Shown: positions 2,794-31,027 of the stretch, one piece after another
Layout: every line of letters begins with the position of its first letter
Numbering within the stretch: the stretch's first letter is position 1
Virus record (IMG/VR): IMGVR_UViG_3300001460_000002
Location: 3,243 to 34,269 of that record
DNA: 31,027 nucleotides
From: a virus
Reading direction: 5' to 3' (one strand)
Made by a program: the position numbers and the translations under genes
The notes under the pieces: generated by a model
What the model saw: only the letters and a program-made list of their open reading frames with translations
Database searches by the model: none
Told to the model about the DNA's origin: nothing

Positions 2794-3320
2794 TATGCTG
2801 CCCTCCTTTGTTTTAATTTAAACTTTTGCAATGCTGTTAAATCATTTTTAGATCCAAAGATTTCTTTTTTAGATTTAAGATGTGCTTTTCTATTTGGTAT
2901 ATTATGACCTATACATTTTCTGGCCTCATCCCACATTTTATTTTCTAAATACCAATAATAGATATGTGCTTTCATACATGGTGTACCATCTTTATTACAA
3001 TGACCATCACCATCCCATAATTCTTTTTCTGTAAATTTTAATGGTTTATCTTTTCCATAAATATAAGAACCAAGTAATTGTGATTTGTGTCCATATACTT
3101 TTATCTTAATTGGTTTTGGATTTTTCTTTAAAGATACAAAATACTTTTTTGCAAAATTGACAGCATCCTTATCATTATCAAATCTTTCTGTCAGAGTTCT
3201 AACTTTGTATCCCTTGTTTTTTCTTTCATATATTCTACTGTTATCTTTTTTGATTGTATAAAAGTCATCAAATTTATAACCACCAAAAGTTTCTTTTTTT
3301 AGAACATAATAATTAGCCAT
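2793..3320 (-). CDS. Unknown 175-aa basic protein
   Basis: I do not recognise this family. The protein is lysine- and aromatic-rich throughout, with an acidic loop-like stretch at about residues 102-115 (WDGDGHCNKDGTPC) whose DGDGH and two Cys could bind a metal, though it does not match a full EF-hand. The C-terminus is strongly basic (LKQRRAA). Both ends overlap neighbours by TAATG, so it is translated with the serine recombinase downstream and the 90-aa gene upstream. Being second in the early leftward operon, a role in early takeover or DNA handling is possible but not shown. Confidence 0.8.
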   Translation of the reverse strand: MANYYVLKKETFGGYKFDDFYTIKKDNSRIYERKNKGYKVRTLTERFDNDKDAVNFAKKYFVSLKKNPKPIKIKVYGHKSQLLGSYIYGKDKPLKFTEKELWDGDGHCNKDGTPCMKAHIYYWYLENKMWDEARKCIGHNIPNRKAHLKSKKEIFGSKNDLTALQKFKLKQRRAA

Positions 3321-5631: not shown

Positions 5632-5765
5632 AATTATTTACAAAGCCTAAAGGTTCGTATATGATTTGTACTGTAGAAGATTGTAAATATACAGGGCAGA
5701 AACTTGGGCCTTTTTCTTTTAGAAAAAGTGTACCCCCTTCTCCCCCAGGGTGCGTATATCTATAG
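5622..5765 (+). CDS. Small 47-aa protein after the replication initiator
   Basis: A short frame starting at an ATG inside the initiator's last codons (10-base overlap), with AAAAGGA just upstream. The sequence begins MEIELFTKPKGSYMICTVEDC and continues KYTGQKLGPFSFRK, with three Cys in total and a proline-rich end (SVPPSPPG). No family recognised. The overlap and ribosome binding site make it plausible, but it is short and its last third runs through a compositionally odd C-rich stretch. Confidence 0.45.
   Translation: MEIELFTKPKGSYMICTVEDCKYTGQKLGPFSFRKSVPPSPPGCVYL
5710..5728 (+). other. A/T-rich stem-loop near the end of the replication cluster
   Basis: CTTTTTCT at 5710-5717 pairs with AGAAAAAG at 5721-5728 around a 3-base loop. 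It lies inside the 47-aa frame, before a C-rich patch and a run of seven T near 5781. It could pause transcription between the replication and packaging genes, but the stem is weak and the T-run is too far away for a standard terminator. Confidence 0.25.
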
Positions 5766-5823
5766 GGGTATATCACACAATTTTTTTACAAATAAAACAT
5801 GAAACAAACAAGTAAGGAAATAT

Positions 5824-12355: not shown

Positions 12356-13151
12356 TGAAGAAATAAAAAATGAAGAAAGTTTAATTGGTGATGCTCCGGC
12401 TACAGAACCGGTAGAACCTAATCCAGAGGAAACAACTATTCCTCATAAAGAAGAAGAGCAAACTAATACAACTCCTCAACAAGAAACAGATGGAGCTAAA
12501 TTAGAAAAACCAGATTACATTGAAGATAAATTCTGGGATGAAAAAGAAGGAGTTAAAACAGAAGATTTAAGTAAATCATATACTGAATTACAAAAACAAT
12601 TTTCTATGGGAAAACATAAAGCTCCTAAAGAATATGATATGGCAGCATTAGAAGATATAGATGAGGATGATGAATTAGCATCTTATTTTAAAGATTGGGC
12701 AAAAGAAAATAAACCAACTCAAGCTGCATTTGATAATCTTGTAAATAAATTTAAAGAATTATCTGTAGCTCAAGCAGAAGAAGATAGTATTAATATTGAC
12801 GAAGAGAAAAAAATACTAGGGCCTAATGCTGATCAGATTATAAAAGGTATTACAACTTGGGGCCAAGGATTAGTATCCAAGGGTATATGGTCAGATGCTG
12901 ACTTTGATGAGTTTAAAATTTTTGCAGCTACAGGCAATGGTATTAATGCTTTAAATAAAGTTCGTAAGTATTATGGTGAACAAACTATACCTACAGCTCC
13001 TATAGATGTTGAAGGGCAACCATCTAAAGAAGAGTTATATAGTTTAGTAAATGATCCTAAATACAAATCAGATCCAGGATTTAGAAGAAAAGTTGAAGAA
13101 CAGTTTGCTAGAGCTTACCCTGGTACTGCAACATCAACAGGCGAAATCTAA
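12348..13151 (+). CDS. Capsid scaffolding protein
   Basis: A 267-aa, strongly acidic, mostly helical protein in the position of T7 gp9, directly before the coat gene. The first 55 residues are disordered and E/P/T-rich. The core begins with KPDYIEDKFWDEKEGVKTEDLSKSYTELQKQFSMGKHKAP, a pattern typical of podovirus scaffolds, followed by long helices and a conserved-looking WGQGLVSKGIWSDADFDEF. The C-terminal FRRKVEEQFARAYPG is positive and could contact the coat protein. AAAGGG lies before the ATG. It probably guides procapsid assembly and leaves before maturation. No protease motif is visible. Confidence 0.9.
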   Translation: MSSEEIKNEESLIGDAPATEPVEPNPEETTIPHKEEEQTNTTPQQETDGAKLEKPDYIEDKFWDEKEGVKTEDLSKSYTELQKQFSMGKHKAPKEYDMAALEDIDEDDELASYFKDWAKENKPTQAAFDNLVNKFKELSVAQAEEDSINIDEEKKILGPNADQIIKGITTWGQGLVSKGIWSDADFDEFKIFAATGNGINALNKVRKYYGEQTIPTAPIDVEGQPSKEELYSLVNDPKYKSDPGFRRKVEEQFARAYPGTATSTGEI

Positions 13152-13176
13152 TGAATAAATAATTTTTTTTAAACTA

Positions 13177-13205
13177 TTTACATTTGATATAAAATCGCTT
13201 ATCTT
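13177..13205 (+). promoter_or_regulatory. Predicted sigma70-like promoter upstream of the coat gene
   Basis: -35 TTTACA (13177-13182), a 17-base spacer, and -10 TATCTT (13200-13205). Transcription would begin near 13212, about 124 bases before the coat gene start, so the whole structured leader would be transcribed. An independent promoter here would explain high coat protein synthesis. A second, weaker possibility is TATAAA at 13188-13193 without a good -35. Confidence 0.5.
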
Positions 13206-13211
13206 TGTAAG

Positions 13212-13335
13212 TGAAGATAACTAAATATTCATTTAGCCTTCTGGCTGGTGGGCAACTACACCATACGATCAGCCGGATATGTATTCCGACAACTGAAAAT
13301 AATAGTAACAATGTGTAATATATGAAAGGATAAAT
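13212..13335 (+). ncRNA. Structured 5' leader of the coat gene (candidate RNA element)
   Basis: This gap is far richer in G+C (about 54% over 13235-13290) than its surroundings and contains several nested complementarities: CTAAAT/ATTTAG (13221-13226 with 13231-13236), AGCC/GGCT (13235-13238 with 13243-13246), TGGTG/CACCA (13246-13250 with 13259-13263), GGCTG/CAGCC (13243-13247 with 13270-13274) and CGGA/TCCG (13274-13277 with 13285-13288). Some exclude each other, so alternative folds are possible. AAGGA then follows before the coat ATG. No open frame of note and no match to tRNA, hammerhead or other RNA I know. It may stabilise, process or regulate the coat mRNA. Confidence 0.5.
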
Positions 13336-14187
13336 ATGGCACAATCAATAACAAATGCTTTTGTTACTCTATTTGATGCAGAGGTCAAACAGGCTTACCA
13401 ATCAGAAAGTGTATTGCGACAGGCTGTTAGATTAAGATCTGGAGTACAAGGGCAAACTTACAAGTTTAATAAACTTGGTAAGGGATCTGCAACTGCAAGG
13501 ATACCTCAAACTGATGTTACACCTTTAAATGTAACTTACAGCCAGGTAACTGCAACTATGTCAGATTACAATGCTGCTGAATACAGCGATATTTTTCATC
13601 AAGCAAAAGTTAATTTTGATGAAAGATCAGAGCTTGTTCAAGTAGTATCAAAAGCAATCGGTAGAAGAATAGACCAATTAGTCATAGATGCTCTTAATGG
13701 TGCATCTGGTGCATCAACAGTAGCGAAAAATGTTGTTACATCTGGTTCTGCTGCAAACTCAAACTTGAATGTTGGAAAGTTAATAGCTGCTAAAAAAGCT
13801 CTTGACACAAAAAATGTTCCCTTTGATGATCGTTGCATAGCTGTTCATGCTAACAATTTAGCTGGACTACTAGGTGATGAGAGAGCAGTAAGTGGCGACT
13901 TTGCGTCTATCAAAGCTCTAGTTTCTGGTGAGATCAATACTTTCATGGGTATGAAATTTATTGTTCTTGGCGACAGAGATGAAGGTGGACTACCATTAAC
14001 ATCAAGCGACAGAAGTATTTTTGCTTTCCATCGTTCAGCAATAGGTATGGCTGAAAACATGGCACAAAAAACAGAGATCAACTATGTTCCGGAGAAAACT
14101 TCGTTCCTAGTTAATTCTATGTTTAGTGCTGGTGCAGTATCTATAGATGACGAAGGTGTTGTAAAAATAACTTGTGACGAAAGCTAA
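13336..14187 (+). CDS. Major capsid (coat) protein
   Basis: A 283-aa protein between scaffold and tail tubular genes, with an HK97-fold composition. It starts MAQSITNAFVTLFDAEVKQAYQ, then a strand-rich N-arm/E-loop-like part with QTYKFNKLGKGSATARIPQ, a helix with ERSELVQVVSKAIGRRIDQLVIDALN, and a C-terminal beta-rich domain ending NSMFSAGAVSIDDEGVVKI. It is shorter than T7 gp10A. There is no N-terminal propeptide or protease domain, matching assembly with a separate scaffold. AAGGA sits at good spacing. A promoter and structured leader lie upstream. Codon and base composition look less A/T-extreme than in neighbours, as expected for the most highly expressed gene. Confidence 0.93.
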   Translation: MAQSITNAFVTLFDAEVKQAYQSESVLRQAVRLRSGVQGQTYKFNKLGKGSATARIPQTDVTPLNVTYSQVTATMSDYNAAEYSDIFHQAKVNFDERSELVQVVSKAIGRRIDQLVIDALNGASGASTVAKNVVTSGSAANSNLNVGKLIAAKKALDTKNVPFDDRCIAVHANNLAGLLGDERAVSGDFASIKALVSGEINTFMGMKFIVLGDRDEGGLPLTSSDRSIFAFHRSAIGMAENMAQKTEINYVPEKTSFLVNSMFSAGAVSIDDEGVVKITCDES

Positions 14188-14206: not shown

Positions 14207-14482
14207 ATGGCTTATGCAGAAATAGGACTACAACCAATAGGTGGTCAATCAAAAGCTGGTAATGCTCCTCAAATGTGGAGTTACAAATCAGCTGATGCAA
14301 TCGCAACTGTTAACACTTCTGGATACTTTAATACAGCATCCGATAGTTTAAAAGTTGGTGATTTAATTTATGTGTACGATAGTAATACACCTACTGCTAG
14401 TTTAGTAGTAGTGCTATCAAATGCATCTGGAGTAGTGGATGTATCTGATGGAACAGCTATTACTGTTGCTGACGCAGATTAA
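14207..14482 (+). CDS. Small capsid-associated protein (possible head decoration)
   Basis: A 91-aa beta-rich protein directly after the coat gene, with AGGAAGG upstream. The middle reads SADAIATVNTSGYFNTASDSLKVGDLIYVYDSNT, then SLVVVLSNASGVVDVSDGT, a compact beta-sandwich-like pattern that recurs in small proteins beside coat genes and in repeats of some virion proteins. A decoration or fibre role on the head is likely from place and fold pattern but not proven. A 10-bp stem-loop follows 12 bases after the stop, so it shares the coat transcript. Confidence 0.65.
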   Translation: MAYAEIGLQPIGGQSKAGNAPQMWSYKSADAIATVNTSGYFNTASDSLKVGDLIYVYDSNTPTASLVVVLSNASGVVDVSDGTAITVADAD

Positions 14483-14493
14483 TAAATAAATAT

Positions 14494-14518
14494 GAGGAGG
14501 CCCTTAATGGGCCTTCTC
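14494..14518 (+). terminator. Strong stem-loop after the coat gene pair (partial terminator or RNA processing site)
   Basis: GAGGAGGCCC (14494-14503) pairs with GGGCCTTCTC (14509-14518), 10 bp including one G-T wobble, around a TTAAT loop. The bases after it are TGTATT, not a T-run, so it is at best a leaky rho-independent terminator. It could equally protect the coat mRNA 3' end, as in other podoviruses where coat transcripts are the most abundant. Confidence 0.6.
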
Positions 14519-30607: not shown

Positions 30608-31027
30608 AGGTTATTCAAGGGTACTCACAATCTCGGATCTTCATTGCCCCTGGGAACATCCAGATGCATTTGATTTTTTAAAAGCATTAAAGAAAAAGAT
30701 TAAACCAGATTTTGTTTTGAACCTGGGTGATGAGGCCGATGCCCATGCCCTATCAATGCATGATAGTGATCCAGATCTTATGTCAGCCGGTGATGAGCTG
30801 ATAGCTGCTAAAAAAAGATTACATAAATTAGAAAAAATTTTTCCAGAAATGACACTACTACATTCTAATCATTCATCATTAATATATAGAAGAGCATTGA
30901 AACATGGAATGCCAAGAGCTTACTTAAAAAATTATAATCAGTTTTTAGAAGTAGGCCCAGGATGGGAATGGGTAGATGATATTACAATACCATTATCAGA
31001 TGGATCTAAAGCATTTGCTACACATGG
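30591..31027 (+). CDS. Calcineurin-like metallophosphoesterase (3' end cut off by window)
   Basis: The frame starts at ATG 30591, overlapping the amidase by 17 bases, and is open at the right edge after 145 residues. The family metal sites are visible in order: SDLHCPW (D16 and H18), NLGDEAD (D47), and HSNHSS near 91-96, where the usual GNH[DE] is SNHS. Such enzymes hydrolyse phosphodiesters or phosphomonoesters with two metals; in phages they are often listed as phosphatases or exonucleases. The Asp/Glu after the His of the third motif is replaced by Ser. The C-terminal metal ligands (GHxH) lie outside the window. Substrate unknown; DNA processing after early infection is one possibility. 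Confidence 0.85.
   Translation, partial: MSSSAKGYSRVLTISDLHCPWEHPDAFDFLKALKKKIKPDFVLNLGDEADAHALSMHDSDPDLMSAGDELIAAKKRLHKLEKIFPEMTLLHSNHSSLIYRRALKHGMPRAYLKNYNQFLEVGPGWEWVDDITIPLSDGSKAFATH

Follow-up and report, generated by a model that had tools for sequence, protein, structure and literature searches.

The coat gene locus

The window analyzed here is a 31,027-nt stretch (positions 3,243 to 34,269) of the IMG/VR record IMGVR_UViG_3300001460_000002, which is 34,269 bases long in full and derives from a marine bacteriophage. Comparison with PHROG and Pfam identified portal, T7-type capsid assembly (PF05396), major capsid, and tail proteins, indicating a podovirus-like phage. Equal weak scores of covariance model R1, described below, near both ends of the record (G000; contig positions 843–959 and 33937–34053) suggest a terminal repeat and hence that the genome, of approximately 33.1 kb, is complete. 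A putative 2OG-Fe(II) oxygenase gene (PF13759; 27987–28595) is located among the late genes.

The nearest named relative of the major capsid (coat) protein is that of the OM43 (Methylophilales) phage MEP301, with 62% identity. The coat gene is separated from the end of the capsid assembly gene at position 13151 by a gap of 184 bases (13152–13335), directly before the coat start as an earlier note on this DNA had stated (Table 1). That this is the longest gap in the window, as was also claimed, is not clear, the interval 5632–5823, for example, being at least as long. The G+C content of about 54% attributed to the leader holds for its core (53.7% over 13236–13289), whereas the leader as a whole (13212–13335) is at 34.7%, compared to a window mean of 32.8%.

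Table 1. Positions of the leader RNA, its predicted promoter and the adjoining genes, in window coordinates
Feature	Position	Strand	Evidence
Predicted −35 element TTTACA	13177..13182	+	Sequence; position conserved in relatives
Predicted −10 element TATCTT, 17-base spacer	13200..13205	+	Sequence; position conserved in relatives
Entire conserved RNA element (model R1)	13211..13299	+	R1 match 87.6 bits, E=3.5e-16
Hairpin A: outer stem GAA/UUC; GAUAAC (13216–13221) vs GCC (13236–13238); inner stem UAAA/UUUA	13213..13241	+	Double-sided changes in outer and inner pairs
Middle hairpin UGGUG/CACCA; loop with GCAA	13246..13263	+	Double-sided changes at 4 of 5 pairs
Hairpin C: outer stem UCA/UGA; GCC (13272–13274) vs GACAAC (13288–13293); inner stem GGA/UCC	13269..13296	+	Covariation
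Shine-Dalgarno-like AAAGG of the coat gene	13325..13329	+	Sequence
Major capsid (coat) gene	13336..14187	+	PHROG 3437 E=2e-61; Pfam PF19821 E=5e-75
Second small gene of the coat unit, 91 aa, function not assigned	14207..14482	+	PHROG 18004
Intrinsic-terminator-like hairpin GGAGGCCC-UUAAU-GGGCCUUC with weak T tail, closing the coat unit	14495..14518	+	Similar hairpin in relatives

Two hairpins with mirror-image internal loops

Hairpins A and C carry one and the same asymmetric internal loop, G-NNN-A-Y vs R-C-C, inserted in opposite (mirror-image) orientation: hairpin A runs 5′-stem, GAUAAC, stem-loop-stem, GCC, stem-3′, and hairpin C runs 5′-stem, GCC, stem-loop-stem, GACAAC, stem-3′. No other part of the element is as conserved as this unpaired internal loop. 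Two relatives (L032 and L048) have the variant GGCAAC/GUC in hairpin A, and a groundwater podovirus (L457) has a change of the same type in hairpin C instead, as if an A·C wobble had been swapped for G·U. The apical part of the most compact members is reduced to C-GNRA-G, as in the hairpins CC-GAUAAC-C(GAAA)G-GCC-GG (L439) and CACU-GACAAC-C(GCAA)G-GCC-AGUG (L440), and the loop of the middle hairpin contains G-N-A-A in many relatives. Hairpin C is followed by an A/U-rich spacer of approximately 40 nt and near-constant length, the start codon being mostly 38–53 nt away from hairpin C across the leaders. The several complementary segments, some mutually exclusive, described in the earlier note were recovered: UCA at 13269–13271 has 2 alternative partners, UGA at 13294–13296 or the segment 13242–13244 behind hairpin A, with near-equal scores (0.321 and 0.323), and a switch between the 2 pairings is possible.

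Covariation across phage groups

Folding of the leader as a single sequence was unremarkable (z = −1.04) and uninformative on both strands, so that the window by itself would not prove a structure. Leaders from 80 IMG/VR loci with close coat genes, which vary at many positions, keep one shape. We aligned 33 distinct leaders with MAFFT in the ordinary way (alignment A2) and applied RNAalifold, which recovered the outer stem of hairpin A as well as the inner stem of hairpin C, with up to 17 double-sided changes per pair. The proposed full structure was paired in 90.4% of the A2 cells, compared to 79.8% in 500 shuffles, and double-sided changes affected 15 of the 22 pairs and 69 cells, as opposed to 7.8 and 17.6, respectively, in the shuffles, none of which scored as high; sliding the partner columns by one lowered the fraction of paired cells to 43–50%. 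Both sides of the inner pairs of hairpin C had changed in 17, 8, and 5 sequences.

We also counted pairs in 87 leaders (41 of group 1 and 46 of the MEP301 type) that were positioned by sequence-only anchors. Pairing was far above that of letter shuffles at nearly every helix position, and the inner pairs of hairpin C were formed in 87, 85, and 86 of the 87 leaders (42–54 in shuffles). The loop-closing pair covaried (C-G in 51, U-A in 33, and C-A in 3 leaders), and covariation was likewise present in a third group of 29 HTVC010P-type leaders. Among wobble cells, G-U (40) outnumbered A-C (13), which identifies the coat-sense strand as the functional RNA, and one pair is U-G in 20 of the 29 HTVC010P-type sequences. 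A strict descriptor requiring hairpin A and then hairpin C matched 35 of 103 non-redundant leaders and nothing in 20 shuffled sets, in coat-gene windows, or in a window further upstream; a second version with other settings matched 41 of 134 leaders, again with no matches in shuffles and controls.

A conserved structured RNA of approximately 85 bases thus almost certainly occupies positions 13211–13299, at the predicted 5′ end of the coat mRNA. The earlier note had proposed looking for compensatory changes in related phages, and such changes are there: the pairs are conserved, with many double-sided changes in several groups. The window leader has the features by which we delimit the family, namely, hairpins A and then C with mirror-image loops, a promoter at a fixed distance, and a capsid gene 34–75 nt downstream.

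Predicted promoter, terminator, and transcription unit

The promoter recognized in the earlier note (TTTACA and TATCTT, 17 bases apart) is present, and its spacing to the first hairpin is constant among relatives. In 40 of the 50 leaders with the best scores (≥8), hairpin A follows the end of a sigma70-like −10 element at a distance of 5–7 nt, and the mean −35/−10 score upstream of hairpin A in 71 non-redundant leaders was 7.86 of 12, compared to 6.55 (sd 0.20) in shuffles. The surrounding 8 kb has no excess of promoter-like sites as a class, with 26 found and 36 expected. From the fixed position of the promoter, the transcript is predicted to start at approximately 13212–13213, the base of hairpin A. 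Covariation together with the conserved promoter position gives good support to the proposal of a cis-acting RNA of the coat mRNA. MEP301 encodes no RNA polymerase (PMC8024684), consistent with the use of a host promoter.

A terminator-like hairpin is found 302–336 nt after the coat stop codon, behind the small gene, in many members of both groups as well as in L439 and L440, and 26 nt after the coat gene in Vibrio phage CKB-S2. The coat gene seems to form a unit of its own, composed of the promoter, structured leader, coat gene, small gene, and terminator.

Distribution and specificity of the leader

Coat relatives retrieved with the MEP301, SI2, CKB-S2, L032, and HTVC010P queries retain the order of hairpins A and C in leaders of differing sequence, and the arrangement was found upstream of capsid genes down to approximately 31–36% protein identity. 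Several phage groups keep the pairs although their leaders have diverged beyond sequence alignment. Carriers include the OM43 phage MEP301, the pelagiphages HTVC010P, HTVC203P, Greip, and Lederberg, groundwater podoviruses, and Vibrio phage CKB-S2. In HTVC010P-type leaders, hairpin A is exemplified by GUAA-GACAAU-UC(GCAA)GA-ACC-UUAC, compensated variants being GUGG/CCAC and UUAG/CUAA. Hairpin C shows matching changes within its inner stem. In CKB-S2, the coat protein of which is 36% identical, hairpin A is GCGCAACG-GAUAAU-CAUUUUUG-ACC-CGUUGCGC and hairpin C is GUC-GCC-C(GCAA)G-GAUAAC-GAC. Apparent non-carriers with the same capsid type include several Vibrio, Yersinia, Acinetobacter, and E. 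coli phages, and inspection by eye revealed no leader in Vibrio 1.138.O, ZP6, YeP5, vB_EcoM_APEC, and TPWB-05. As some relatives seem to do without the leader, it is dispensable for this capsid type.

R1 scored significantly at one place in the 34,269-base record, the window leader, and apart from leaders of its own group it had no credible match anywhere in that record or in 885 kb of loci; a second, weak match (window 30695–30811, 14.1 bits) was rejected, as it lies in coding sequence and many of its pairs are broken. An independent two-hairpin pattern was present in 15 IMG/VR contigs, in all cases before a capsid gene of the same superfamily, and had no matches in 84,980 prokaryote genomes. 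Searching named phages for DNA similarity to the leader returned chance matches only, and a broad DNA pattern in IMG/VR returned mostly chance matches, R1 retaining 22 of the loci brought in.

Possible roles of the leader

The model that we favor, and to which we assign an even chance, is that of a compact 5′-terminal element that protects the coat mRNA or promotes its translation, probably via a host or phage factor. A host sigma70-type promoter would start transcription at the base of hairpin A; the 2 identical internal loops would bind a host or phage factor, or the leader would pack on itself; the compact RNA would seal the 5′ end against decay; and the ribosome-binding stretch (approximately 40 nt, A/U-rich, followed by the Shine-Dalgarno sequence and start codon) would be held open. 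The outcome would be a long-lived, heavily translated coat mRNA and a raised yield of coat protein. Counting against sealing of the 5′ end, hairpin A of HTVC010P (L203 1363–1390) overlaps the last part of the small gene before it (CDS 1227–1403), which places the leader also within longer transcripts, whose 5′ end it cannot seal. In a bolder reading, which we consider less likely than not, the leader belongs to a new class of phage RNA found in phages of unrelated hosts, and its 2 mirror-image loop copies attract either a phage factor or a conserved part of the host apparatus (RNA polymerase or ribosome) to the capsid transcript. Capsid output in some of the ocean's most abundant phages would then be set by an RNA.

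A 5′-terminal structure would also be compatible with a put-like or an autoregulatory role. In the former, the nascent leader would bind the host RNA polymerase and suppress pausing or termination over the capsid region, like putL of phage HK022. The element begins at the predicted transcription start and has 2 bulged hairpins, as does putL, and the presence of this one RNA in phages whose hosts belong to different bacterial classes would fit a conserved target such as RNA polymerase. Nevertheless, we regard this role as unlikely: putL is without the G-NNN-A-Y/R-C-C internal loop, an antiterminator would make useless the terminator-like hairpin located approximately 300–335 nt past the coat stop codon in many relatives, and the leader is present in a single copy per genome, in the late region instead of early operons. 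Similarly doubtful is an autoregulatory operator, whereby a phage protein (coat, assembly, or another) on both mirror-image loops would repress or time coat synthesis. Paired copies of one internal loop would suit a dimer or 2 protein copies, and the RNA is tied to the capsid family, as all 15 contigs with the two-hairpin pattern have it before a capsid gene of the superfamily and the 84,980 prokaryote genomes searched lack the pattern; however, the Shine-Dalgarno sequence and start codon are not part of the structure but lie approximately 30–45 nt past hairpin C, an uncommon arrangement for a translational operator, and no RNA-binding domain was recognized among the window proteins scanned.

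Short inverted repeats near a promoter can be operators, and a promoter is indeed present beside the repeats of the leader. That these are DNA sites (an operator or a recombination site) rather than parts of an RNA is nonetheless highly improbable, given that the excess of G-U over A-C wobbles and the prevalent U-G pair of the HTVC010P type make sense only for an RNA of the coat strand and that internal loops are conserved, not palindromes. RNase III sites of the T7-like kind consist of a long duplex (approximately 20 bp) with an internal loop; the leader, in which outer and inner stems together mostly make up 5–9 bp, has duplexes too short for RNase III processing to be likely. A hidden coding sequence in the leader was considered and rejected.

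Relation to known phage and bacterial leaders

None of the leaders and loci matched any of the 4,227 Rfam 15 families at the gathering threshold, and permissive thresholds yielded chance-level matches only, either outside the element or with scores well under the gathering cutoff, in agreement with the earlier opinion that the leader matches no known RNA class. A description of such an RNA was not found in the open-licence literature, and an earlier description elsewhere is possible. The leader appears to represent a new RNA family that heads a transcription unit dedicated to the capsid; the novelty lies at the level of the RNA family, and the mode of action may prove familiar.

The T7 unit comprising ϕ10, the gene 10 leader, and Tϕ is a separate strong unit for the major capsid protein with its own promoter and a terminator behind. 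The coat unit described herein resembles it in that a capsid gene is set apart by its own promoter and a terminator-like end. The T7 promoter serves the phage's own RNA polymerase and the T7 leader forms a simple hairpin, whereas here a sigma70-like promoter is combined with a conserved multi-hairpin RNA. Bacterial 5′ stabilizers, such as the ompA 5′ UTR, begin a highly expressed mRNA with a stem-loop, as is predicted for the coat mRNA, but conserve little beyond the stem, whereas the leader conserves its unpaired internal loop most. The HK022 putL element is located right at the transcription start and spans approximately 70 nt with 2 bulged hairpins (PMC9378689). HK022 putL and putR share with the leader the nature of a phage RNA with 2 bulged hairpins immediately after a promoter, and put acts in cis on its own transcript, as is presumed for the leader. 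Put RNA is characterized by binding to the β′ zinc-binding domain, with suppression of pausing and termination. The leader differs in its third, middle hairpin, in preceding a late capsid gene rather than early operons, and in the terminator-like hairpins downstream. A scan of putL, which we placed in HK022 from published residue positions (27 of 27 matching), revealed no G-NNN-A-Y/R-C-C hairpin, whereas the leader has both.

The RNA is widespread in phages, including the abundant ocean phages of the HTVC010P type. It is located beside the gene for the product in greatest demand by the phage, and it is missed by the annotations that we examined. The asymmetric loop in 2 orientations offers a testable module for how phages dependent on host RNA polymerase raise capsid output, and the leader might be used as an expression element for bacteria with poor genetics.

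Additional features of the leaders and SI2-like relatives

The group 1 spacer between hairpin C and the Shine-Dalgarno sequence (window 13311–13319; relatives L018–L080) contains a conserved linear UGUGUUAA-like stretch, the TGT of which is invariant in alignment A1 of this group. An unpaired AAG that lies between the middle hairpin and hairpin C, just past the former, is seen repeatedly in groups 2 and 3 and in L439, L442, L551, and L553, leaders that are otherwise dissimilar. In MEP301-type leaders, the middle-hairpin loop CGUAA is almost invariant.

None of the 28 GC-rich SI2-like leaders (L288–L366) matched the descriptor; by eye they are structured differently, and we do not claim them as members. 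They share a conserved CAAGAUGCAGACCC...GGCACCC...GGCCC...CAAGGCCCUCGAUC...GAUUGAAACCUUG series, and their stem CAAGG/CCUUG is replaced by UUGG/CCAA in L320, a change that suggests a second, possibly related, leader RNA. In Pelagibacter phage Baldr (L466 1–600), both motif hairpins before the coat gene, UAUUC-GCC-C(UUUA)G-GACAAC-GAAUA and GGUU-UCC-C(GUAA)G-GAUAAA-AGCC, are seemingly in the C orientation, an apparent flip of the loop module.
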